A DNA stretch of 33,544 nt from an uncultured bacterium (GTDB lineage: Bacteria > Bacteroidota > Bacteroidia > Chitinophagales > Chitinophagaceae): positions 1-33,544 of the forward strand of contig CAILKQ010000068.1 in NCBI GenBank assembly GCA_903834825.1. Direction: 5' to 3'. Position 1 is the stretch's first letter, and each line of letters starts with the position of its first letter. The position numbers and the translations under genes were made by a program. Below are positions 9,110-29,212 of this stretch, piece after piece. The notes under the pieces were generated by a model. The model made no database searches and was not told the DNA's origin. It worked only from the letters and a program-made list of their open reading frames with translations.

Positions 9110-12100
9110 ATGTTCATGAGAAGACTGGTTGTTGTTTTTGTTTTGACTTTTTTTGGGACATTTTCCCATGCACAGGATTTTTCCAACAAGGGGAAGGAGT
9201 TTTGGGTTGGCTATGGCAGCCATGTCGCGATGTACAATGCCAATGGAACAGTTGACGCAGGGGGCGGAGCACAGGATATGGTTTTGTATTTTACATCGGA
9301 TCGAAATGCAAATGTTACAGTAAGCATTCCCTCGTTAGGGTGGACTAACACCTATACCGTAGTTGCAAATGCAGTAACCACATCAGCACGTTTACCAAAG
9401 ACAGGAGCACAAGATTCCAGAATTACTAATGAGGGCAAAACTGCTAAAGGAATCCATATAACCTCCGATGTACCCATTATTGCATATGCTCACATTTATA
9501 ACGCTTCGGTATCCGGTGCCACTTTGTTGTTTCCTGTAAACACTTTGGCACGTGAATATTATTCCATCAATTACAAGCAAGTCTCAAATCAGAATTATTC
9601 CTATTGTTTTTCTTATGTTATTGCAACTGAAGATGATACCAATATAGAAATCATTCCAAGCGCAAGAACAATACTAAATAATGCTGGGGACACCATCAAG
9701 GTTAACCTCAACAAAGGAGAGATTTACAATATCCTTGGGAGGTTGAATACTGCATCCAATCCGTTTTTGGGAGAAGACCTGACTGGAACAAAAATCAGAT
9801 CAGTTGCCACCCCCACAAGTCCATGTAAACGGATCGCTGTTTTTTCAGGATCTGGTAAATTGAGCATCTCCTGCAACAATGGATCAGGAAGTGCTGATAA
9901 CTACATGCAACAAGCATTTCCATCCAATGCCTGGGGTAAAAAATATCTTACCGTTCCAACCTTGAGAATGCCAAATAATTTTTTTCGTGTTGCCATCAGC
10001 AAGCCTGGTACTGTGGTAAAAAGAAATGGCACAGCGCTTACAGGCTTACAAGGTGGTTTTTATTACGAATACCAAAGCAACACACCGGATCTCCTGGAAT
10101 CTGATCAACCTATAATGGTTGCCCAATATATTACCACTGCAAACAGCTGTGGCAATACCCAAATTGCTGGCAATGGCGATCCTGAAATGATATACATCAG
10201 TCCTATTGAGCAAACAATAGATAAGGTAACAGTAAACTCCACACCCAATGCGGGGATAAACCAGCACTATATCAATATTGCCATTCACAAGAATGGGGTA
10301 AGTTCTTTAAAAATTGATGGTGTCGCTCCAGTGATAGTATCAACTGTTCATCCACAGGAATCTAATTATGCCTATTACCAAGTTCAGGTGGGGGCAGGCT
10401 CGCATACCATTCAAGCTGATTCTGGTTTCAATGCCATTGCATATGGTTATGGTGGTGCTGAAACCTATGGCTATAACGCCGGGGCTAACGTGAAGGATCT
10501 TTACCAGACCCTGACCACCAACAATAAATTTGCAACAGTAAAACTGCCTGCTACTTGTAAGGGAACACCTTTCAATATTGCTATTACTTTACCTTATGAG
10601 CCACTTTCCCTTGAATGGAAGGTTCCCAATTATCCGGCAATTCCTAAAGACAATGCTCCAAAATATGATTCAACATATTTGGTCAGTGGTAAACGTATTT
10701 ATAGCTATTCATTGAAAGGAACTTATATTTATAATACGATCAGCACCTATAATATCCAAGTAATTGCCAACAACCCAACCACAGATGGATGTACTGGAGA
10801 ACAGCAAATTGATTTTGATTTGCAGGTTTTTGAACCACCCAAAGGAGGGTTTAAGTTTACATCATCGAATTGCATCACTGATTCAATCGCATTTGTTGAT
10901 ACAACTACGTCTACTGCCAGGCCGGTTATTGGCTATTCATGGGATATGGGTGACGGAAACTTCTCTGCACTGAAAAATTTCAGTTATAAGTACAAGAATC
11001 CTGGGAAATATACAGTCAAGTATTTTGCCTACACGGATGTAGGTTGTTTGACAGATACCATCTCACAAGATGTATATGTAGACAGCGTTCCAGTTGCTAA
11101 TTTTTCCATCCTTGGTCAAACCTGCCAAAACAAAGATGTCACGTTCGTTGATGCTTCCCGTGTTGGGGGAGGATCAAAAATAGTAAAGTGGTTGTGGGTA
11201 ACTAATAATTCATTTACCAATGCTACCAATGCATCAGTAGTGGAGAAATTTACGGGTTTGCAACAATACAACGTACAATTGAGGGTCGTCACAGAATATG
11301 GTTGTTTTAGCCCAACCAAGTCATTACTGTTTTCAAACAACCCCAACCCATCTGTAGATTTCAGTTTACCCAAAATCTGCTTGCCTGATGGTATGGGAAC
11401 CTTTAATGACCTAAGCACCATCGTTGATGGAAGCCAGGCCTCATTTATCCGCAACTGGTCTTTTGGAGATCCAAATGCATCTCCAACCAATCCTGATACT
11501 GCGATTAATCGTATTTCACCTACACATAAATATACTGCTGTAGGTCCTTATACAGTTAAATTAATCATCAGATCCAACAATGGTTGCGTAGATAGTTTGA
11601 GCAAACAATTGACCCAGGTGTTTGCACAGCCAAAGGCTGAATTCACCGTTACTCCTGAAGTTTGTTTAAGGGAAAATACAAAAATGAATGACCAGACCAA
11701 TCCGCAGGGAAGAACCATGTTCAAATGGAATTGGACCTTATCCAATGGATTGAAAGATACCCTCCAAAATCCATTGTTCACACTCACAACAGCAGGTACT
11801 TATACAGCGAAATTGGTTGGCTTTACAGCAGATGGTTGCATCAGCGATACTGCTACAAAATCGTTTGTTGTTCATCCATTGCCTGTTGCCAATTTTAAGG
11901 TCATAGATCCGGCTTGCGAAACCGAAACCGTTTCATTTGAGCAGTTGTCAACCGCAAATGTAGGAACTTTAACAAGGTGGAATTGGCGATTGGGCAATGC
12001 AACAACTCCCCAAGATTTTACCAATGCCAATCAGGTAACAAAAACCTTTGCAGTCTGGGGTGACCAGGTGATCAAGTTGATGGTCGAGAACAGCAAAGGG

Positions 12101-14257
12101 TGCAAAAGTGATACTACAACCAAAACAATTCGGATTCATCCTAAACCAGTCGTCAACAACAGCATACCCGAAGTGTGCTTGAACGACGCATTTGCAGAAT
12201 TCTCAGACAGCACTAAAATTGCAGATAACAGTACAGGTTTTGCGCATCTTTGGAGATTTGGTGATGCCAATGCCATCCCTTCAAATCCTGATAGCTCAGT
12301 ATTGAAAGACCCAAGACACAAATACACAGCTGCTGGCACATACACCATGTCTCACAGGGTAACCAGTCTTGCGGGTTGCGTCTCTACTAAATCAACATCT
12401 TTTATTGTAAGTGGTGCAGTACCTAAATCCAACTTTGTGGTTTTGTTGCCAGATTCACTTTGTAGCAACGATACCGTAAGGATAAAAAATCTGTCTACCG
12501 TAGACTTTGGATTTATCGGTAAACTTGAAATCTATTGGGATTACGACAATAATCCAACGGTTAAGGATATCGACCAACTTCCGGATTCAGGAAAGATATA
12601 CAAACATGTTTATCCAAAGTTTTCCAATCAGCCGCTTAAGCCTGTCAGAATTGTGGTTCGCGCATTTTCTGGTGGTAGCTGCTCTGATGATGAAAATAGT
12701 CAGGTAAAATTGTTGGGAAGCCCTGCTGTACAATTTGATTCAATCCCAGGCATTTGCCTTGAAGCAACACCACGACAAATTACCCAAACAAAATATACTG
12801 ATGTAACAGGAATTGCACCTGGCGATTCAGTCTTTACCGGTAAAGGAGTTAATACAAAAGGTTTATATTCCCCTTTGATTGCCGGTGCAGGTACATATTT
12901 TTTACAATATACTTTCACCGCTTCCAATGGTTGCAAGGATACAGCAAGCAAAAGCATCATTGTTTGGCCCAGACCAACAGCAGATTTTGTTTTTAGCACC
13001 TTGAATTGTGAAAAAAACCCAATCACGTTCACCAGTAAATCAATTCCTAATACTGGTACACTGGTGAAATGGAACTGGAACTTTGGAGATGGTTCGCCCA
13101 TTCAATCCACAGGAAATGCCAGTCCTTTGAACTATGTTTATTCTTTATACAAAACCTACAATGTTAGCCTGGATGTTGTAACCAATAACGGATGTACAAG
13201 TCAACCGAAAATACTTCCTGTGTTGGTTCATCCGCTCCCCCTGCTGAATTTTGATCTTCCAAAAGTTTGTCTACCAGAAGGGAAGGCCTTGTTCACCAAC
13301 AATACCACCATACCAGATGGATCTGGCTCGCTACTCACATATTTATGGAATTTTGGCAATCCCAACAATACCAATCCAGCTGTTACCAAAGATGGTACAC
13401 ACAATTATCTTTCTTTAGGAAGTTACAGTGTAAAATTGGTAGCAACAAGCAACAACAATTGTAAAGATTCACTGACCAGGCTGCTGGTTGATGTATTTCC
13501 CCAACCCAAAGCAATCTATACAAGCCTTGATTCTGTATGCCTGGGAAAAGACATTCAATTTAGTGACAAAAGCAATGGATTTGTAAGACCCATCACAGCG
13601 TGGAACTGGGATTTTGGCAATGGCAATGTAGATAAGACAAAAAATCCGCTCTATTTATACAGGGCTACTGGAACCTTCAATGTTAGCTTGTTTGTAGTTA
13701 GTGCTGAAGGTTGTGTCTCTGACACGGCAGTAAAATCCATTACCATCCATCCTTATCCGAAAATATCTGCCGGACCCGACATGTATGTATTGGATGATGG
13801 TCAAAAAACAATTGTTGCCACAGCTACGGGGAACTCCCTCACTTATGCCTGGTCACCAGCGACTTATCTCAATTTTACCGATATTCTTCAGCCTTTGGTT
13901 GTAAAGCCGCAAGACGATATTGTATATACCCTCAGTGTTACGGGTAGGGGTAATTGTACAAGCACGGATGATATTGCTATTACAGTTCTGAAACTTCCAA
14001 AGCCCCCCAATACTTTCACCCCCAATGGTGATGGCATCAATGATCTATGGGATATCAAATACCTGGATCAATATCCAGGTTGTATCTTAGAGGTGTATTC
14101 GCCCCAGGGCCAACTTGTTTTCAGGTCTGAAGGATATGCAAAACCTTGGGATGGAACGTACAAAGGAAATGCATTGCCAACTGGCACATATTATTTTGTG
14201 ATTGATCCGAAATCTGGCAGAAAGAAAGTTGCTGGATATGTAACCATTTTTAAATAG
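9110..14257 (+). CDS. Giant surface protein: IgGFc-binding-like domain, PKD repeats, type IX sorting domain
   Basis: A 1715-residue secreted, probably surface-attached protein. Signal peptide at residues 1 to about 22 (MRRLVVVFVLTFFGTFSHAQ; ATG 9116 is an alternative start). Residues about 25-480 resemble the IgGFc-binding-protein N-terminal domain of bacterial adhesins (GKEFWVGYGSH, DMVLYFTSDRNANVTVSIP). From about 580 to 1550 there are eleven ~85-residue beta modules, mostly PKD (YSWDMGDG, WNWNFGDGS, LWNFGNPN, WNWDFGNGN). Each typically has one Cys near its start and a second in a GC before its last strand, suggesting an internal disulfide. The C-terminus (from about 1631, NTFTPNGDGINDLWDIKYLD ... 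GTYYFVID ... VAGYVTIFK) is the gliding-motility-type T9SS signal. The likely role is adhesion or matrix binding; no enzymatic domain is visible. The PorP/SprF gene begins 2 bases later, a common pairing for this secretion class. Confidence 0.93.
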   Translation: MFMRRLVVVFVLTFFGTFSHAQDFSNKGKEFWVGYGSHVAMYNANGTVDAGGGAQDMVLYFTSDRNANVTVSIPSLGWTNTYTVVANAVTTSARLPKTGAQDSRITNEGKTAKGIHITSDVPIIAYAHIYNASVSGATLLFPVNTLAREYYSINYKQVSNQNYSYCFSYVIATEDDTNIEIIPSARTILNNAGDTIKVNLNKGEIYNILGRLNTASNPFLGEDLTGTKIRSVATPTSPCKRIAVFSGSGKLSISCNNGSGSADNYMQQAFPSNAWGKKYLTVPTLRMPNNFFRVAISKPGTVVKRNGTALTGLQGGFYYEYQSNTPDLLESDQPIMVAQYITTANSCGNTQIAGNGDPEMIYISPIEQTIDKVTVNSTPNAGINQHYINIAIHKNGVSSLKIDGVAPVIVSTVHPQESNYAYYQVQVGAGSHTIQADSGFNAIAYGYGGAETYGYNAGANVKDLYQTLTTNNKFATVKLPATCKGTPFNIAITLPYEPLSLEWKVPNYPAIPKDNAPKYDSTYLVSGKRIYSYSLKGTYIYNTISTYNIQVIANNPTTDGCTGEQQIDFDLQVFEPPKGGFKFTSSNCITDSIAFVDTTTSTARPVIGYSWDMGDGNFSALKNFSYKYKNPGKYTVKYFAYTDVGCLTDTISQDVYVDSVPVANFSILGQTCQNKDVTFVDASRVGGGSKIVKWLWVTNNSFTNATNASVVEKFTGLQQYNVQLRVVTEYGCFSPTKSLLFSNNPNPSVDFSLPKICLPDGMGTFNDLSTIVDGSQASFIRNWSFGDPNASPTNPDTAINRISPTHKYTAVGPYTVKLIIRSNNGCVDSLSKQLTQVFAQPKAEFTVTPEVCLRENTKMNDQTNPQGRTMFKWNWTLSNGLKDTLQNPLFTLTTAGTYTAKLVGFTADGCISDTATKSFVVHPLPVANFKVIDPACETETVSFEQLSTANVGTLTRWNWRLGNATTPQDFTNANQVTKTFAVWGDQVIKLMVENSKGCKSDTTTKTIRIHPKPVVNNSIPEVCLNDAFAEFSDSTKIADNSTGFAHLWRFGDANAIPSNPDSSVLKDPRHKYTAAGTYTMSHRVTSLAGCVSTKSTSFIVSGAVPKSNFVVLLPDSLCSNDTVRIKNLSTVDFGFIGKLEIYWDYDNNPTVKDIDQLPDSGKIYKHVYPKFSNQPLKPVRIVVRAFSGGSCSDDENSQVKLLGSPAVQFDSIPGICLEATPRQITQTKYTDVTGIAPGDSVFTGKGVNTKGLYSPLIAGAGTYFLQYTFTASNGCKDTASKSIIVWPRPTADFVFSTLNCEKNPITFTSKSIPNTGTLVKWNWNFGDGSPIQSTGNASPLNYVYSLYKTYNVSLDVVTNNGCTSQPKILPVLVHPLPLLNFDLPKVCLPEGKALFTNNTTIPDGSGSLLTYLWNFGNPNNTNPAVTKDGTHNYLSLGSYSVKLVATSNNNCKDSLTRLLVDVFPQPKAIYTSLDSVCLGKDIQFSDKSNGFVRPITAWNWDFGNGNVDKTKNPLYLYRATGTFNVSLFVVSAEGCVSDTAVKSITIHPYPKISAGPDMYVLDDGQKTIVATATGNSLTYAWSPATYLNFTDILQPLVVKPQDDIVYTLSVTGRGNCTSTDDIAITVLKLPKPPNTFTPNGDGINDLWDIKYLDQYPGCILEVYSPQGQLVFRSEGYAKPWDGTYKGNALPTGTYYFVIDPKSGRKKVAGYVTIFK

Positions 14258-14259
14258 AA

Positions 14260-15282
14260 ATGATGAGAAGATTGTTTTTGTTGATTGTCTGTTTTGTTTT
14301 TGTGAATGTATCCAATGCACAACAAAGGCCACACTATACCCAGTACATCATGAACAATTATATTGTCAATCCTGCCATTGGGGGTATTGAGAATTATGTT
14401 GATGTAAAACTCAGTGCCAGAAATCAATGGATTGGCATTGAAGGTGCCCCAAAAACTTTTTATGCCACCATTCATGGGGCAATAGGTAAATCTGACTACC
14501 GAGAATCAGCCAACTCTTTTGACATGAAAGGGCAAAACCCCAGAGGAAAAGAGTATTGGGCCAATTATACTTCAGCCCCTCCACATCATGGGTTAGGGTT
14601 TACCGCAGTCAATTACTCTACAGGCTATATCAACCGCATGACCACCTACGCAACCTATTCCTATCATGTAGGCCTTACTGCTACAACAAGTCTTGCAGCT
14701 GGTTTTGGTGCAGGATTTTCATCCATCAATGTCAACAAAAGCAAGATCACACTTGCAACAGCATTTGACCCGGCAATTGGTACATCAGTCAATGATATCA
14801 GCAAAATCAAGCCAGAGTTGAATGCAGGCTTATGGTTGTATTCTTCCAATTATTTTGCAGGTCTTTCCGCCCAACAAATCATTCCTGTACGGTTCAATCT
14901 GGTTGACAGCGCTGCCTATAAATCAACACTCGTTCCACATTTGTTTGCCACGGCTGGTTACCGTTTTTTCCTCAGCCAGGATATAACGGTATTGCCTTCT
15001 GTGATGTTGAGGTATATTGCTGCCACACCCTTGGCCGTTGACGCTAATGCCAAGATGCAGTTCAGGGATCTTATGTGGATCGGTGCCAACTACAGGATGG
15101 GGGATGGATTCGCAGGTATGGTTGGACTCAATGTTGCCCATACCTTCAATATCAGTTATGCATATGATCTCAACAAGGGAAAATATCTCTTAAGTACCAT
15201 GAACCGTGGCACCCATGAAATTGTACTCGGTTTCACCCTGAACAATGCATATGGAGATCTTTGTCCAAGGAATGTTTGGTAA
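14260..15282 (+). CDS. PorP/SprF family type IX secretion-associated outer-membrane protein
   Basis: A beta-barrel outer-membrane protein of the PorP/SprF family, which helps display or translocate large type IX substrates. Signal peptide (MMRRLFLLIVCFVFVNVSNAQ), then the diagnostic start of the mature protein (RPHYTQYIMNNYIVNPAIGG) and SARNQWIGIEGAPKTF. The rest alternates hydrophobic and polar strands and ends in HEIVLGFTLNN before a short tail. 340 residues is the normal size. It begins 2 bases after the giant PKD gene and is surely co-transcribed. The inference that it serves that adhesin rests on this coupling and on the known PorP/SprF-partner arrangement (for example SprF with SprB). 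Confidence 0.93.
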   Translation: MMRRLFLLIVCFVFVNVSNAQQRPHYTQYIMNNYIVNPAIGGIENYVDVKLSARNQWIGIEGAPKTFYATIHGAIGKSDYRESANSFDMKGQNPRGKEYWANYTSAPPHHGLGFTAVNYSTGYINRMTTYATYSYHVGLTATTSLAAGFGAGFSSINVNKSKITLATAFDPAIGTSVNDISKIKPELNAGLWLYSSNYFAGLSAQQIIPVRFNLVDSAAYKSTLVPHLFATAGYRFFLSQDITVLPSVMLRYIAATPLAVDANAKMQFRDLMWIGANYRMGDGFAGMVGLNVAHTFNISYAYDLNKGKYLLSTMNRGTHEIVLGFTLNNAYGDLCPRNVW

Positions 15283-21891: not shown

Positions 21892-23286
21892 TTATTCTGC
21901 TTTCTTGACAAAGATGGTATCTGTAATGACCGATTTCATTGAATCACCAAAGTATAGATTAGCATTGGTTTTTATTGATTCCAATGCAAGCCTTTCATCA
22001 GTTGTTATTTTAATTCCCTGCAGATAAATCATTTTCAAATTCGGCAGATTCATCAGGTTTTTTACACCACCGGCAGTTGTCTTTGTATTTACAATGTTCA
22101 GGTATCCCAGATTATTCAATGCCGTAACCTGCTTCAATGCATTGTCTGAAATGTCAGTATGGTCCAGCCAAAGCTTCTCAAGGTTGATGAATTGATTGAG
22201 ATTTTTCAGGTCATTGTCCTTCAATGCTGAAAAGGATAATTTCAATTCTATAACATGCTCACTGATTTCAGCTGCTGCTACCAATGCATCATTAATTGTC
22301 CCCTCAATATTATAACCAATCAGTCGAATATGATTGTCATCTAATGATATAGTTGAGACAACCCATCCCATTTTTTCAAGCCTTTTCTTTATTTGCTCAT
22401 CAAGTTTATCGATGGGTTCCCTGGTTTTCACGATGGTTTTTTCTTGTATTTGGTTCTCCGCTTTAAAGGATGCCAATGCCTTGATCACCTTTGCATCTGG
22501 TGATAATGCTGCTACAGATTTATCAAAAGAGGCACCTGCATTGATCCACCATTGGAAAATGACCAGTTCTGCATCTGTGAGCTGTGTTTTTTCTTTAGGA
22601 GGCATGTGGTGCTCGTCAATATCATCCAACAAAATCCTTTTGATCAATTCTCCATCAGATGGATCTGTGGTATTGATCAAATTGCCATTCTTACCTCCCG
22701 CTTTTATCCAGCTAAGGTCATCCAAGCGTAATTTTCCTTTTTGTTTTTTACTGCCATGGCATTGAACACATTTCTGGTTCAGGGTATACTGTACCAGGTC
22801 CTTGTAAACCAGGGCTTGGTTGATGTCTTTGATGTCCAACGGCGCTGCCGTGATTGTTTTGGCATCAAGGGTTCCTTCAGTTAAAAATCCTTCTCCATGG
22901 GTAAGTGAACCTCCCTGGTGACCTGTCCAGGCCAGCATAACAAGCAATAAAAGTAGTGTATAGGTATGGGCAAGTCGCTTGGCCATTAATTTTTGCCGCA
23001 AGAAATAATATATAGTAAAGAGGGCAGTGGTTCCAATCGCCGTCCACTGGTGATTATCCACCAAATCTTGGTTGTTGATCCCTTCCAGAGAAAGGGTATA
23101 TCCTGTGACAAGGGAAAGGATAGCAGACAGTATTCCTATTCCCAGGATCAGGCGAATCGAAGCAGAGAGATATGTAAATTTATCAAACCTCGTTAGTCCA
23201 TCCATGACAATAACCAACACAAAAATACCAATGGGTAAATGCACCAAAACGGGATGAAAGCGGCCAATCAATTCTATCAGGTTCAT
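21892..23286 (-). CDS. Membrane c-type cytochrome: DUF2231 + PSCyt1 + leucine-rich repeats
   Basis: Function unknown; an inner-membrane redox protein by its parts. Residues 1 to about 125 hold four hydrophobic helices with the DUF2231-like start (GRFHPVLVHLPIGIFVLVIV). A planctomycete-type cytochrome module follows: covalent heme motif CVQCHG (C173-C176-H177) and a likely distal Met in DEHHMPPKEKTQL, then IFQWWINAGASF. Residues about 340-435 are leucine-rich repeats (LEKLWLDHTDISDNALKQV, LNNLGYLNIVNT, LPNLKMIYLQG). It is the last gene of the six-gene operon, 9 bases after the TIM-barrel gene. It probably sits in the membrane with the heme and repeats in the periplasm, feeding or receiving electrons. 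Confidence 0.85.
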   Translation of the reverse strand: MNLIELIGRFHPVLVHLPIGIFVLVIVMDGLTRFDKFTYLSASIRLILGIGILSAILSLVTGYTLSLEGINNQDLVDNHQWTAIGTTALFTIYYFLRQKLMAKRLAHTYTLLLLLVMLAWTGHQGGSLTHGEGFLTEGTLDAKTITAAPLDIKDINQALVYKDLVQYTLNQKCVQCHGSKKQKGKLRLDDLSWIKAGGKNGNLINTTDPSDGELIKRILLDDIDEHHMPPKEKTQLTDAELVIFQWWINAGASFDKSVAALSPDAKVIKALASFKAENQIQEKTIVKTREPIDKLDEQIKKRLEKMGWVVSTISLDDNHIRLIGYNIEGTINDALVAAAEISEHVIELKLSFSALKDNDLKNLNQFINLEKLWLDHTDISDNALKQVTALNNLGYLNIVNTKTTAGGVKNLMNLPNLKMIYLQGIKITTDERLALESIKTNANLYFGDSMKSVITDTIFVKKAE

Positions 23287-23295
23287 GCGATGGTT

Positions 23296-24204
23296 TTAGC
23301 TGTATCTTTTTCTTATTGTTTCCATCATGTACTTGTTGATGGCCCATTGATCAGCAACAGGTTGACTAGAGAAAGGAAGGGTCTGCAGATAATTGGGCGG
23401 ACCAAATTCAGTGAGGAACGTGATGGATTGCCCTTCAATTTTTTTTCTCTCAATGACCTTATCCCACCAATCAAAATGTGCCTTGACCTCATTTTTCCAT
23501 TCTGGTGCTCGTGGATCATTTACTTGTGGACCCTCAGCATGACCAATCCTCGCATGGATATGTTCTGTTCTTGCCAAAGCCACATCAACACTGATTTGTT
23601 GATCTGCTAATAAACCCTCATGTACATTGCACCAGTGCGAAATATCAAGGGTCAGTTTAAGTTCTTTGAATCGATCGATGAAACCCCTGGAAACATGGGC
23701 AGCAAAAAGCATCCTGCCCCGGTGGGTTTCATGGTAGATGGGCACGCCTGAAGCATCAGATTGTTTAATGGTCATGGCCACCATTGCTGCATTGTCATCA
23801 AAACTAAAATAGTCTTTACCTGAATGACAATTGATATAAAGGGGTTTCAAAGAGATGGCTCGTTCAATTGCATCAGAAAACTGTTTTTTGTGCAATGTGG
23901 GGTTGGAATCATGTCCGCCTGCCAGCAGTCCAAGTTTAAGTCCCGCTTTACCGACGGCTTCACTCAATGCATTCATCTCAGCAATAGAGCCCGGAACCCA
24001 TACTTCTATGCCATCATATCCATCTTTTTTGGCTGCTGCACAGAATTCCACAAGATTACCATTGAACCCCCAGTTGGTTGCCATGATGATCAGATTTGCG
24101 GCTGGCAACTTGATTGCAGGGGTTGCAAACGCATCAAGTTCTGTAGAAAGCAAAGAACCAGCCATCAATGATCCGGTCTTCAGAAAATTTCTTCTGTTGT
24201 TCAT
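23296..24204 (-). CDS. Exported sugar isomerase/epimerase-like TIM barrel
   Basis: A xylose-isomerase-like TIM-barrel enzyme carrying a twin-arginine-type signal (NNRRNFLKTGSLMAGSLL), so it should act folded in the periplasm rather than in central metabolism. Putative divalent-metal ligands are placed as in the family: Glu in YHETHRGRM, Asp/His in LDISHWCNVHEG, His in HIHARIGHAEGPQ, and Glu in FLTEFGPPNY. 302 residues is normal. Exported relatives act on sugars or keto-sugars as isomerases, epimerases or lyases; the substrate here is not readable. It is encoded between the DUF1501 gene (8-base gap) and the DUF2231-cytochrome gene (9-base gap), part of one operon. Confidence 0.88.
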   Translation of the reverse strand: MNNRRNFLKTGSLMAGSLLSTELDAFATPAIKLPAANLIIMATNWGFNGNLVEFCAAAKKDGYDGIEVWVPGSIAEMNALSEAVGKAGLKLGLLAGGHDSNPTLHKKQFSDAIERAISLKPLYINCHSGKDYFSFDDNAAMVAMTIKQSDASGVPIYHETHRGRMLFAAHVSRGFIDRFKELKLTLDISHWCNVHEGLLADQQISVDVALARTEHIHARIGHAEGPQVNDPRAPEWKNEVKAHFDWWDKVIERKKIEGQSITFLTEFGPPNYLQTLPFSSQPVADQWAINKYMMETIRKRYS

Positions 24205-24212
24205 GGTTTGAT

Positions 24213-25703
24213 TTAAGCGATAATGGGATCTATGGGTTTTCCAAAAACGTCTGTAAGCCGGAATGGCCTACCCTGGAATTGATAGGTCAATTGCTCATGG
24301 TCAAACCCAAGCTGTTTCAATATGGTGGCCTGTACATCATAAACGGAAACCTTTCCTTCAATGGCATTGTATCCAATTGGATCTGTTTCTCCATAGCTGA
24401 ATCCAGCTTTGATGCCGCCTCCTGCCATCCACATGCTGAAAGCTTCGGAATGATGATCACGGCCTTTGAAGCTGTTTTGTTTGCCATCCCTGTTTTCCTG
24501 CATGGGTGTTCTTCCGAACTCTCCACCCCAAACCACCAGGGTCTCTTCCAGCAAACCCCTTTGCTTCAAATCCAGCAGCAAAGCCGAAACAGCCTTGTCT
24601 GTCTGCAAACATTTGCCAATGAATCCTTTGTCTAGGGCAGTGTCTTCCCCAGTGCCATGGCTGTCCCATCCCCAATCGAAAAGTTGAACAAAGCGTACAC
24701 CTTTTTCAACCAGTTTTCTGGCAAGCAGGACATTGTTGGCAAAAGACTCTTCACCAGGTTTTGTACCATACATTTCATGAATATACGCCGGTTCATCAGC
24801 GATGCTCATGACATCTGGCACAGCAATCTGCATTTTGAAAGCCATCTCGTATTGAGAGATCCTCGCTAATATTTCAGGATCCTTGTATTCGTTGTAGGAA
24901 AGTTCATTTACATTGTTGATGGCTTCAATCGATGCTTTCCGCATATCCCTGTCAAAGCCATTGGGGTCTTCCAAAAATAATACAGGATCGCCCTCAGACC
25001 TGCATTGAACACCCTGGTAAACGGATGGCAGAAAACCACTTCCCCAGATGCTTTTTCCTGCATCCGGATTTCTTCCCCCAGAAGTCAATACCACAAAGCC
25101 AGGCAGGTTGCTATTTTCTGAACCCAGCCCGTAGGTTACCCATGAGCCCATGCTTGGTCTTCCTAACCTTGGTGTACCACAGTGCATCAGCAATTGTGCA
25201 GGGGCATGGTTGAATTGATCTGTATTGACAGCCTTCAGAATGGTTACATCATCAATGACCTGTTGAAAGTGGGGGAGGTTATCAGACAGCCACAAACCAC
25301 TTTGTCCATATTGTTTGAAACTGGCCTGAGGACCCAATAATTTGGGGACGCCACGGATGAAGGCAAATTTCTTTCCCTGAATGAATGAATCAGGACAATC
25401 GAGGCCATCCATTTTTTGAAGTTCAGGCTTGTAGTCAAACATCTCCAGTTGAGAAGGAGCCCCAGCCATGTGAAGAAAAATCACTGATTTCGCTTTTCCC
25501 TGAAAATGAGGAGCGCGGGGAGAGAGGGGATTCGACACCAATGAGCCATCTGCATTGTTGCCGGAGAACAGGTTGCAGCTGTCCAATACTGAACCCATTG
25601 CCATCATTCCCATACCAGTCCTGCATTTCCCTAGAAAATGTCTTCTTGTTTGATAGGACAGGGCGGTTCTTTGTGCCTCCAGTTGTATTTTTTCTTTTGT
25701 CAT
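24213..25703 (-). CDS. DUF1501 family exported protein
   Basis: A member of DUF1501, an alkaline-phosphatase/sulfatase-superfamily-like family abundant in Planctomycetes and some Bacteroidota; its function is not established. N-terminal twin-arginine motif QTRRHFLGKC (R20, R21) followed by GMGMMAMGSVLDSC, whose LDSC could be a lipobox. Family landmarks: KAKSVIFLHMAGAPSQLEMFD, the HAPAQLLMHCGTPRLGRPSMG region, FVQLFDWGWDSHG, VVWGGEFGRTPMQEN, and RDHHSEAFSMWMAGGGIK. Length 496 is typical. It lies 10 bases downstream of the DUF1553 cytochrome gene; DUF1501 and DUF1553 genes are habitual neighbours, implying a joint role. Confidence 0.93.
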   Translation of the reverse strand: MTKEKIQLEAQRTALSYQTRRHFLGKCRTGMGMMAMGSVLDSCNLFSGNNADGSLVSNPLSPRAPHFQGKAKSVIFLHMAGAPSQLEMFDYKPELQKMDGLDCPDSFIQGKKFAFIRGVPKLLGPQASFKQYGQSGLWLSDNLPHFQQVIDDVTILKAVNTDQFNHAPAQLLMHCGTPRLGRPSMGSWVTYGLGSENSNLPGFVVLTSGGRNPDAGKSIWGSGFLPSVYQGVQCRSEGDPVLFLEDPNGFDRDMRKASIEAINNVNELSYNEYKDPEILARISQYEMAFKMQIAVPDVMSIADEPAYIHEMYGTKPGEESFANNVLLARKLVEKGVRFVQLFDWGWDSHGTGEDTALDKGFIGKCLQTDKAVSALLLDLKQRGLLEETLVVWGGEFGRTPMQENRDGKQNSFKGRDHHSEAFSMWMAGGGIKAGFSYGETDPIGYNAIEGKVSVYDVQATILKQLGFDHEQLTYQFQGRPFRLTDVFGKPIDPIIA

Positions 25704-25713
25704 TGTTGTTGTT

Positions 25714-28470
25714 CTAGTTCTTGGTGATTACTTCATCGAGGTTTAAGATGGCATTGGTAACGACAGCAAATGCTGCCAATTCCTTGCCTTGTTTTCTGTA
25801 AACAGAATCGGATAGCATTCCCAAAATTTTCTCTTTCTCCTTTTCAAGTTTTTGAAAACTGGAGGTGTAAAGCTGTTGAAATGCTTTGGTTTTTTGTTCG
25901 TTGATGGGGTGCCCTGTTGCCAAAGCATATCCTTTGCCAATTCTTTGCTCAAGAGAAAGTGATTTGTCTTTGAGCAGGTTTTGGGCAAGTTTAACGGAAA
26001 GATCCCAATACGTTGAATCATTGAGCAAGGTCAGTGCCTGCAATGGTGTGTTTGTTCTTATGCGCCGTGTGGCACATACTTCCCTGGCTGATCCGTCAAA
26101 ACTGATCATAGATGGATATGGGCTGGTTCGTTTCCAATAGGTGTAAATAGCCCGTCTGTATTGGTCTTCTCCATCACTTTGTTTCCATTTTCGGCCATCA
26201 TAAGGTGATCTCCAGATTCCGTCAGGCTGATAAGGCATCACACTGGGCCCATACATTTTATCGCTGAGGGCACCACAAATGGCCAGTGCCTGATCCCTTA
26301 CTTGCTCAGCACTCAGCCTTACCCTTGGGGCATGGGAATAATATTTATTGAGGGGATCCTTATCTTTTGCCTTGCCCGTGGTTTTTGAGGATTGACGGTA
26401 AGTGGCAGACATGACCATCCTCTTCAACGTTTTTTTGACACTCCAATTGTCATCGTTCATGAATAGATAAGCCAAATGATCCAGCAATTCTGGGTGTGTC
26501 GGGTTGGCTCCCTGAGAACCCAGGTCTTCCAGTGTTTCCACCAATCCCTGTCCAAACAACTGCTCCCATAGCCTGTTGACCATTGTTCTGGCAGTGAGGG
26601 GATTTGTTTTTGACGTCATCCACTGGGCCAATCCCAACCTGTTCCTGAGCTGTATGTCTTTGTCATTGACAAACAATTCCGGTAATCCGGCCTCCACTTG
26701 TTTTGTCTTGAGCAACCAGTTTCCCCTTTCAAAAACATAAGTTTTGCGCTTCATGTCCGCAGGATTGTCGAGCATGATGGGCGTGAATTCAGCATCCGGT
26801 CTGTTCAAGGTCTGGATAAAAAGATCATGGTACGTTGTGAAATCTTTTTGATCTTTTCCTGGAAAACTGGGGGTAAATGCAAACCAGTCAAAGCGCATTC
26901 CATTGTCATCTTTAGACTTCAACTTGCTGTTTTCATAATTCAGGTAAAGGTCATGAACTCCAGTTGAGCCTGGTGGAAGATCTACCTCAAGCATGGACCA
27001 CCCACCTTTGCTCTTGTCTACCTTAATTTTTAAATAGGGTTTGGCACTGGTAGAATCCAACCGGATGGTCAGTTGTCCATTGTCATTACCAGAGCCATAC
27101 CGGATGAGCAAAGTTGACTTGTTGGTCAGGCTGATGGCTTTCATCCTTGCCCAAGATGATTTGCGCAACATCAGAAATTTGGTATCACCCAGCGCCGCAT
27201 TGATCATGGAGTCAGCCAACAAGCTGTTGATGCACTGCTGCCCTGTTTTAAGCAACCTGGAATAATAAGTTTTGAGGTCATTGTTGCCATAAAGGTTGAT
27301 CCAGGTCATTACAGAATCATATTGGCTGATGCTCTTGTTGCGAAACTCGCGCAACAGCGGATAATCGTCGTAGGTGTCCTCATCCCTGGAATTGTTGAAA
27401 TAAGCCATGAACTTATAATATTCCTCATGTTTGAAGGGATCATATGGGTGGCTATGGCACTGAACGCAGGCAAAACTGGTTCCCATCAGGGTCTCCCAGG
27501 TCGTATTGACCCTGTCAATGATGGCAGCTGTCCGGAATTCTTCATTATCAGTACCCCCTTCATCATTGGTCATGGTATTGCGGTGAAATGCGGTTGCAAT
27601 GAATTGTTCATCAGTGGCATTGGGCAAGAGGTCTCCCGCGAGTTGTTCTGTCAGAAACTGGTCATAGGGTTTATCCTGGTTGAATGATTTGATCAGCCAG
27701 TCGCGATACCGCCAGATGGACCTGATATAATCCCTTTCATAGCCTTTCGTATCAGCGTATCTTGCAAGGTCCATCCACAAGGATGTCCATCGTTCGCCAT
27801 AATATTTAGAGGCAAGAAGATCATCAATCAGGTGCTCATATGCTTTGTTTGATGGGTCAGAAAGGTATTTTTGAGCAATGCTATCAGGGGCAGGTATACC
27901 TATAATATCAAGTGAGGCTCTTCTCAGAAGAGATTGTTTATCAGCCATATCTGAACGTGATAAATTATTCTCATCTAGTTTTTTATCGATAAAAAGATCA
28001 ATGTCATTCTCATCATCATTGTCAAAAAAAGAAAAGAATCCTCCGCCTGGAATCTTCTGTGGCTGGACAGATTTATACGCCCAATGGGTTTCAAATTTGG
28101 CTCCTTCATCAATCCAACGGGTAAGGAGTTTAATTTCCTGTTTTGAAAGTGGTTCTTCCTTGTAAGGCATTCTTTCTTCAAGATCCTTGTGGTACAATCG
28201 CCTGATCATTTCACTGTTTTTTGCATCGCCTGGAATGATGGCTGGTTTTCCAGAAGCAGTGGGAGAGAGCGCCTCATCCCTAAAAAGCAGGCTGAAACCT
28301 CCTTTTTGCCTCACTCCACCATGGCAGGAAATGCATTTCTGGTTGATGATAGGTTTGATTTCAGCATTATAGTCTACTGGCTCATCTGTCAGGAAGAAAT
28401 AATATCCCGTTAGGCCAAGTGTTAATCCAAGGATGGTAAGGAAAAGCGGAGATTTTATAATTGATGGCAT
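25714..28470 (-). CDS. PSCyt1-DUF1549-DUF1553 cytochrome
   Basis: A large exported c-type cytochrome of the planctomycete type; no proven function. One N-terminal hydrophobic segment (SPLFLTILGLTLGLTGYYFF) acts as anchor. PSCyt1 heme motif CISCHG (C46-C49-H50). The DUF1549 (PSCyt2) section contains a second CxxCH in SFACVQCHSHPYDP (about residue 335). The DUF1553 section follows towards the C-terminus (QWMTSKTNPLTARTMVNRLW, LGSQGANPTHPELLDHLA, RRIRTNTPLQALTLLND). The middle insertion (about 440-570) is beta-rich and could bind carbohydrate. The track's first codon is TTG at 28500; ATG 28470 follows the cutC stop by one base, giving 918 residues. Two hemes suggest electron transfer linked to oxidation of a periplasmic substrate. 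Confidence 0.9.
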   Translation of the reverse strand: MPSIIKSPLFLTILGLTLGLTGYYFFLTDEPVDYNAEIKPIINQKCISCHGGVRQKGGFSLLFRDEALSPTASGKPAIIPGDAKNSEMIRRLYHKDLEERMPYKEEPLSKQEIKLLTRWIDEGAKFETHWAYKSVQPQKIPGGGFFSFFDNDDENDIDLFIDKKLDENNLSRSDMADKQSLLRRASLDIIGIPAPDSIAQKYLSDPSNKAYEHLIDDLLASKYYGERWTSLWMDLARYADTKGYERDYIRSIWRYRDWLIKSFNQDKPYDQFLTEQLAGDLLPNATDEQFIATAFHRNTMTNDEGGTDNEEFRTAAIIDRVNTTWETLMGTSFACVQCHSHPYDPFKHEEYYKFMAYFNNSRDEDTYDDYPLLREFRNKSISQYDSVMTWINLYGNNDLKTYYSRLLKTGQQCINSLLADSMINAALGDTKFLMLRKSSWARMKAISLTNKSTLLIRYGSGNDNGQLTIRLDSTSAKPYLKIKVDKSKGGWSMLEVDLPPGSTGVHDLYLNYENSKLKSKDDNGMRFDWFAFTPSFPGKDQKDFTTYHDLFIQTLNRPDAEFTPIMLDNPADMKRKTYVFERGNWLLKTKQVEAGLPELFVNDKDIQLRNRLGLAQWMTSKTNPLTARTMVNRLWEQLFGQGLVETLEDLGSQGANPTHPELLDHLAYLFMNDDNWSVKKTLKRMVMSATYRQSSKTTGKAKDKDPLNKYYSHAPRVRLSAEQVRDQALAICGALSDKMYGPSVMPYQPDGIWRSPYDGRKWKQSDGEDQYRRAIYTYWKRTSPYPSMISFDGSAREVCATRRIRTNTPLQALTLLNDSTYWDLSVKLAQNLLKDKSLSLEQRIGKGYALATGHPINEQKTKAFQQLYTSSFQKLEKEKEKILGMLSDSVYRKQGKELAAFAVVTNAILNLDEVITKN

Positions 28471-28471
28471 A

Positions 28472-29212
28472 TCAAAGCGTTGAGTGAAAATGTGTGACAA
28501 GATTATTTTTGAGGTGTTTTACTTCTGTTCCATCCAATGACACCTGAACCAGGTTCTCTTTCATATCGTTGTTGAGGTATTGCATTTGGCTTTCAAGTGT
28601 TTTTCTTGCTGAACTATGAAAGCATGTCGCGCCGGTATCCTTGGCAAGCTGAATGATATTTTCAGCCCGTACTCCTGATCCGGGCATAATCTTGATTCTT
28701 CCATTTGCCTGCGATACAAGTGTCTTGAGCAAGGTAATTCCTTCAATTGCAGTAGGTTTTAAACCGCTCGAAAGTATTCTTTTACAACCTATTGCAATTA
28801 TTTGCTCAAGTGATATGAGAGGTTCTTTGACCCTGTCAAAAGCCCTGTGAAAAGTCACTTCCATCTTACCTGCCAATGCTACCAATTCCTGGCATTTTTC
28901 GACATCAACACTTCCGTCATTTTTTAATATACCTATTACAACTCCTTCACAACCATTATCTTGTGCACATTTAATATCTTCCTTCATGGTCTCAAATTCT
29001 TCTTGAGTATACAAAAAGTCTCCACCGCGGGGACGAATGATAGGGAATACCTGTATATGGGTTGATTTCCTGGCCGCTTTCATCATGCCATACGATGGGG
29101 TAGTGCCGCCTTCATGAGGATTTGCACAAAGCTCTATCCTGTCGGCGCCGTTCTCAGCAGCCAATTGACAGGATAGAATATCAAAGGCAATGACTTCTAG
29201 TTCAAATTTCAT
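28472..29212 (-). CDS. cutC: CutC family TIM-barrel protein
   Basis: Annotated by tradition as a copper homeostasis protein, but direct biochemical evidence for that role is weak and the family has a TIM-barrel enzyme fold. Diagnostic stretches: GADRIELCANPHEGGTTPSYG, FPIIRPRGGDFLYTQEE, VTFHRAFDRV, KRILSSGLKPTAIEG, KIMPGSGVRAENI, and FHSSARK. No signal peptide, so cytoplasmic. The track starts 14 codons earlier inside the glycosylasparaginase gene; ATG 29212 (MKFELEVIAFD), one base after that gene's stop (TGACATG), is the real start, giving 246 residues. In this operon a role in sugar or glycan metabolism is as reasonable as copper handling. Confidence 0.93.
   Translation of the reverse strand: MKFELEVIAFDILSCQLAAENGADRIELCANPHEGGTTPSYGMMKAARKSTHIQVFPIIRPRGGDFLYTQEEFETMKEDIKCAQDNGCEGVVIGILKNDGSVDVEKCQELVALAGKMEVTFHRAFDRVKEPLISLEQIIAIGCKRILSSGLKPTAIEGITLLKTLVSQANGRIKIMPGSGVRAENIIQLAKDTGATCFHSSARKTLESQMQYLNNDMKENLVQVSLDGTEVKHLKNNLVTHFHSTL

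Follow-up and report, generated by a model that had tools for sequence, protein, structure and literature searches.

The eleven-module array of the 1715-residue protein described here is likely to be the stalk of a T9SS fibrillar-adhesin-like surface protein that changes its length in steps of three modules, with surface display, a rod shape and adhesion as its presumed properties. The protein is encoded in a window of 33,544 nt (contig CAILKQ010000068.1, from an uncultured bacterium of the Chitinophagaceae), which is the whole stretch of DNA that was analysed. Direct observations on which this reading draws are the architecture, the module types, the size steps, one recombination tract, the exchange of the head, the SprF linkage and the T9SS genes.

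The gene and its surroundings

The features of the gene are listed in Table 1. The sorting domain at its C-terminus scored 61.8 bits against a cut-off of 35 (NCBIfam TIGR04131) and 79.5 against 27 (Pfam CHU_C). The neighbouring PorP/SprF gene reached 227.8 bits (NCBIfam cut-off 90.55), and a PorP/SprF gene lies downstream in most relatives too. Type B proteins depend on a cognate SprF-like protein, whose gene commonly follows directly (PMC12618676) and by which they may be anchored (PMC9143113), and the PorP/SprF protein of the window is the probable cognate shuttle and anchor of the present protein. Both T9SS components that were looked for, SprA (SprA_N) and GldM, are present in the window genome, together with ten type B domains and eight PorP/SprF proteins above curated cut-offs.

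Table 1. Features of the adhesin-like gene and of the gene that follows it (positions in the window).
Feature	Positions	Strand	Description	Evidence
Whole gene	9110..14257	+	1715 aa: putative signal peptide, head, D0, eleven-module array, E, type B T9SS C-terminal domain	ORF, Pfam, NCBIfam
Head region	9167..10516	+		Pfam IgGFc_binding match, residues 137-446
D0	10517..10828	+	Unassigned domain joining head to array, two Cys; residues 470-573	
R1	10829..11080	+	C-like PKD module	
A1	11081..11344	+		
B1	11345..11623	+		
C1	11624..11875	+		
A2	11876..12142	+		
B2	12143..12418	+		
X	12419..12718	+	Distinct conserved module type, third C of the preliminary description	Without Pfam PKD match
Y	12719..12970	+	Non-PKD Ig-like module, after X in family core	
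A3	12971..13234	+		
B3	13235..13504	+		
C3	13505..13756	+		
E	13757..13993	+	Ig-like domain preceding sorting signal; residues 1550-1628	
CHU_C / TIGR04131	13994..14254	+	Type B T9SS sorting domain	Pfam, NCBIfam
PorP/SprF gene	14260..15282	+	PorP/SprF-family protein; start 2 nt past stop codon of adhesin-like gene	Pfam, NCBIfam

The closest named matches of the protein were metagenome bins labelled Chitinophagaceae or Bacteroidetes. A sequence search of the PDB returned no solved relative of the head, and a literature search on IgGFc-type surface proteins of Bacteroidota yielded nothing directly on the present family. One paralogue, L050 (G000:C18), of at least 1366 aa (it runs into a contig end), matches the IgGFc head hardly or not at all, but has A-B-X-Y-A-B, a final PKD module, E and a sorting domain in common with the window protein, at about 49% identity over residues 903-1714. 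Contigs labelled Williamsia sp. and Bifidobacterium breve (L068 and L098) encode Bacteroidota-type T9SS type B proteins and are probably mislabelled metagenome bins. Elsewhere in the window, at 21892-28500 on the minus strand, a cluster of genes for PSCyt1, PSCyt2/PSD1 (DUF1549/DUF1553), DUF1501 and xylose-isomerase-like proteins adjoins CutC and asparaginase genes. This gene set is best known from Planctomycetes.

Size classes of the array among relatives

Module profiles were run over the relatives to read their architectures, and the gap from D0 to E was measured. The spans cluster at 438-457, 700-732, 976-981 and 1242-1247 residues, corresponding to 5, 8, 11 and 14 modules, between flanking domains that are identical in kind in all four classes. 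The shortest class is R-A-B-X-Y, the 8-module class is either R-A-B-C-A-B-X-Y or R-A-B-X-Y-A-B-C, the 11-module class is of the window type, and the 14-module class is the window type with one further B-C-A. Exactly one such extra unit is present in G016 (267 aa) and in G020 (265 aa), where the B1-C1-A2 unit stands twice in tandem; this unit is absent from the 5-module relatives. The second optional triplet, A3-B3-C3, is absent from the 5-module relatives and from L062. Growth by duplication of triplets of about 260 residues had been proposed in the preliminary description, which looked to orthologues for gain or loss in steps of three. Both ideas are borne out by the four classes, with the extra B-C-A in two relatives and the rejection of single-module duplication (see below) speaking for the former, and other step sizes occur as well.

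Several relatives depart from this scheme. In the slot in which the window protein has its B-C-A, three SprB-like repeats of ~95 aa (named by eye) were found in G006 (L164, residues about 676-957) and five in G018 (L140, residues about 663-1139), neighbouring copies being 49-66% identical. A B-Y doublet is repeated four times in L139 (G003) and three times in L142 (G006), with 18-32% identity between adjacent modules compared to 44-68% between modules of the same type. Because relatives also change by B-Y doublets and by single SprB-like repeats, the triplet is no fixed rule, nor must neighbours always be unlike. In addition, the proteins of Niastella, Chitinophaga and Flavihumibacter are without X, L063/L064 carry other C-terminal domains, and short paralogues have two or three modules only.

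The B-C-A copies of G016 agree in 76-80% of their residues, and their DNA is mosaic: a tract of 209 nt has one mismatch, compared with 71% identity elsewhere (permutation p ≤ 0.0002; L127 (G016:C2), residues 812-881 and +267). Long exact repeats between modules were found in G016 only. Such a tract is what recent gene conversion or unequal exchange in the gene would leave, and an exchange within it would add or remove exactly 801 nt, in frame. The tract could also be an assembly fault, as the G016 assembly is a draft of 170 contigs, in which near-identical repeats can be put together wrongly. The G020 copies, with 66% nucleotide identity and no near-identical tract, are older than those of G016.

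The head tree was rejected as a guide to gain and loss of array units because the head has a history of its own (see below), and a tree of the invariant B-X-Y-E-sorting-domain part was used instead. For the 28 proteins on this tree, the architecture must have changed at least seven times. The two 14-module proteins do not come out as sisters, and the 5-module forms are scattered, with supported branches forcing at least two changes. A long ancestral form that has undergone triplet losses only, without repeated gains, would be in line with this scatter, and the counts, being made on unrooted trees, cannot separate gain from loss. We nevertheless find losses alone a doubtful explanation of the size classes, since the B-C-A copies of G016, and likewise those of G020, are closest to each other within their own genome in the module tree, and the 209-nt tract needs recent copying or conversion. 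This within-genome likeness of the copies therefore implies that the unit was gained twice, or once with concerted evolution afterwards, and a single old gain kept alike by gene conversion could stand in place of two.

Types of modules and their phylogeny

The array proper comprises residues 574-1549, close to the 10850-13760 first delimited (residues 581-1551 of the 1715-aa ORF). Its order had been read as R1, A-B-C, A-B-C, one non-PKD module and A-B-C. The A and B types, the non-PKD module (Y) and the first and third blocks of that reading hold; the third module of the second block is X, and the order is corrected to R-A-B-C-A-B-X-Y-A-B-C, that is, two full A-B-C triplets plus one A-B followed by an X-Y pair. 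The motifs quoted for type B (LPKICL/IPEVCL/LPKVCL and FGDPNA/FGDANA/FGNPNN) and type A (NFSILGQTC, NFKVIDPAC, DFVFSTLNC) are all present. Self-alignment of the array over shifts of 30-499 residues, the check suggested at the outset, gave 364 (B2-to-B3) and 264 (B1-to-B2) as its top two shifts, in agreement with the B-B distances.

Compared with random relabelling, the A/B/C typing is supported by a within-type mean Z of 12.6 against 8.4 for all pairs (p = 0.007). Pairwise Z values were 11-20 for B-B, 9.5-15 for A-A and 21 for C1-C3, and R1 is nearest to C1 and C3 (Z about 13-14). Most array modules are PKD-type and 20-35% identical to one another, module identity within the window protein staying below 50%. 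Pfam PKD_4 reached its cut-off in eight stretches of the whole protein. Of the eight modules from R1 to Y, each scored singly, R1, B1, C1, A2 and B2 reached the Pfam PKD cut-off, A1 was sub-threshold, and neither X nor Y gave a PKD match.

A maximum-likelihood tree was built from 116 modules of 13 proteins, labelled by position only (94 columns). All 30 B modules fall in one clade (96/86), 29 of them with a support of 98/98, which makes B the best-defined PKD type; 28 of the 30 A modules form another clade (97/86), and all X (100/100) and all Y (99/96) group together. C1 and C3 branch off separately at the bottom of the half that holds R, X and C, and C is not cleanly one clade. X, on a long branch, adjoins R rather than C. 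Constraints for C alone, for C plus X and for all A were not rejected (AU p = 0.15, 0.34 and 0.45). The grouping of types across blocks that had been predicted for a module tree is thus found for A and B, is weak for C, and fails for the supposed C of block 2.

That block 2 is nonetheless a complete triplet, its third module being a strongly diverged C, appears unlikely to us. X does follow A2-B2, where a C would be looked for, it belongs to the broad half of the tree that also holds C and R, and a C+X clade is compatible with the data (see above). Its Z values to C1 and C3, however, are only 3.7 and 4.1 where C1 and C3 score 21 with each other, it lacks a Pfam PKD match and forms its own clade with full support beside R, and the X-Y pair exists already in the shortest core relatives, which are without C1 and C3. 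X is therefore treated here as a module type of its own.

Predicted fold, cysteines and conservation

AlphaFold2 models of A3-B3-C3 (pLDDT 95) and B2-X-Y (pLDDT 93) are chains of beta-rich domains, and single modelled modules match the PKD domain of ColG (TM 0.9, rmsd about 1). All eleven modules (10829-13756), X and Y included, contain exactly two cysteines at corresponding positions, which possibly form one disulfide per module.

A distinct binding role had been suggested for the B modules, in which case they might be ligand-binding units and the array would multiply binding sites. The distinctive loop (FGDPNA plus NPD) and the sharp definition of the type in the module tree favour this idea. 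Conservation between orthologues, however, is no higher for B (56-63%) than for C (61%), A2 (60%) or X (59%), and the modelled B module has an ordinary PKD-type fold in line with its neighbours in the A3-B3-C3 chain. The suggestion was dropped, and we now consider a binding function particular to B quite improbable.

Likeness of neighbouring modules

Among spacings of 1 to 8, adjacent modules are the least alike (mean Z 5.1, below 99.9% of random orders). A spacing of 7 gave a mean Z of 13.3 (p = 0.007), and a spacing of 3 gave 8.4, which is not significant alone (p = 0.27) because the X-Y pair breaks the register; a global similarity peak at three modules was accordingly dropped as an argument. 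No exact repeat of at least 18 nt is shared between modules in the DNA of the window gene. The duplications there are therefore old, recent duplication inside this gene is ruled out, and its own triplets are recognised from diverged copies. Duplication of modules one at a time, with the A/B/C likeness due to convergence or uneven conservation, might seem natural for modules that are mostly PKD-type and 20-35% identical to each other, yet it is contradicted already by the rejection of the A3+B3 clade that single-module copying predicts (AU p = 0.0006), by neighbours being the least similar pairs and by the presence or absence of whole triplets in relatives, and can be given hardly any credence.

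Exchange of the head region

Compared with its counterparts in G011 (L059) and G030 (L060), the window protein shows an identity of about 45% over residues 51-450, which rises to nearly 90% for the part from residue 451 to the end. In the same comparison at DNA level the flanking genes are 76-97% and the stalk 70-90% identical, and no alignable DNA was found from about 9200 to 10400. The DNA on either side of the replaced head region can still be aligned, mostly at 80-95% identity. The head of G030 is shared by G027 (L163), at 80-98% over residues 51-450, but its stalk reaches an identity of only about 60%. A head tree constrained to the stalk clade was rejected (AU p = 2e-71), and the two head types are spread over different stalk lineages. 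Judged from these alignments, a cassette carrying the head (about 9200-10430) has been swapped in G011, G030 and G027, also between relatives whose stalks are nearly the same. Such an exchange is compatible with a tip domain under separate selection.

Proposed mechanism

In the mechanism that we propose, the conserved core of the family is head-D0-R-A-B-X-Y-E-sorting domain, with two optional places: B-C-A between A1 and B2, in 0, 1 or 2 copies, and A-B-C after Y, in 0 or 1 copy, the window protein having one copy in each. Because same-type copies are far more alike than neighbours, homologous recombination in the gene would pair each module with one three places off, and such pairing would add, remove or homogenise whole triplets in frame. 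Near-identical domains side by side are thought to promote misfolding in repeat proteins (PMC8201768). Since adjacent modules are the least similar, a three-module unit would lengthen the stalk without placing like beside like, a rule that the SprB-like insert shows not to be absolute; keeping unlike modules adjacent should limit misfolding between neighbours. By analogy with known families, T9SS export and the holding of the C-terminus at the outer membrane would fall to the type B signal and its PorP/SprF partner, and the array would set the distance of the exchangeable N-terminal head from the cell.

We tentatively propose, with less than even confidence, that two systems of variation meet in this one gene: stalk length would change by recombination in three-module steps, between same-type modules three apart, and the head by exchange of a cassette of about 1.2 kb, the composite repeat having been selected because it allows a change of length with unlike domains adjacent. 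The separate exchange of the head suggests an independent evolution of contact specificity and of reach in the T9SS surface proteins of freshwater Bacteroidota. With a composite three-domain unit, a repeat protein could change length without near-identical neighbours, and the present family, with its 5, 8, 11 and 14 modules between a constant pair of flanking domains, offers a natural series for testing this idea.

Comparison with known systems

Multi-domain duplication units are well known (PMC1553488), and variable-length stalks (PMC8201768) and tip shuffling (PMC10952558) have been described too. The SprB-SprF and Fjoh_3952-Fjoh_3951 pairs of Flavobacterium johnsoniae (PMC12618676, PMC9143113) resemble the present system in having a TIGR04131 domain, a PorP/SprF gene directly downstream and a large repetitive protein. 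The window protein differs from them by its IgGFc-type head and by a main repeat made of PKD A/B/C triplets; in the present family SprB-like repeats (again as named by eye) occur only in G006 and G018, in the same slot.

The Periscope proteins SasG, Rib and Sgo_0707 combine an N-terminal functional domain, a folded stalk of variable repeat number and C-terminal attachment, and SasG also has a composite repeat unit, G5-E (PMC8201768). The putative counterparts in the window protein are its IgGFc_binding-type head, its array of modules with folded models (pLDDT 93-95), which numbers 5, 8, 11 or 14 modules across the family, and its type B domain. The definition of that class asks for highly identical repeats; in the window gene there is no 18-nt exact repeat and module identity is below 50%, for which reason the protein was not filed as Periscope. 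It differs further by its three-domain unit, and by length variation between species-level genomes where Periscope proteins vary between strains. By analogy, the window family may work like Periscope proteins over longer times.

Fibrillar adhesins of the CshA/CshA_NR2 group (PMC10952558) share the arrangement of an exchangeable tip on a stalk of repeated domains, whereas in the present family the exchange of the tip is allelic, between genes that are near-identical in their other parts. Expansion by several domains at once is paralleled by the seven-domain repeats of nebulin (PMC1553488), from which the present family differs in being bacterial and PKD-type, with a unit of three and recent intragenic recombination in one relative. 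Grappling hook protein A of Aureispira (GhpA, 9flp/9fls) gave the best structural match to the A3-B3-C3 model (9fls, TM 0.61), with weak sequence similarity. Since the composition bias of this low-scoring PDB sequence match is about as large as its score, homology was rejected, no orthology is implied, and GhpA is kept as a structural analogue only. The window protein is assembled from parts of known kinds, and its three-domain building unit together with an exchangeable tip makes it a useful example of adhesin evolution.
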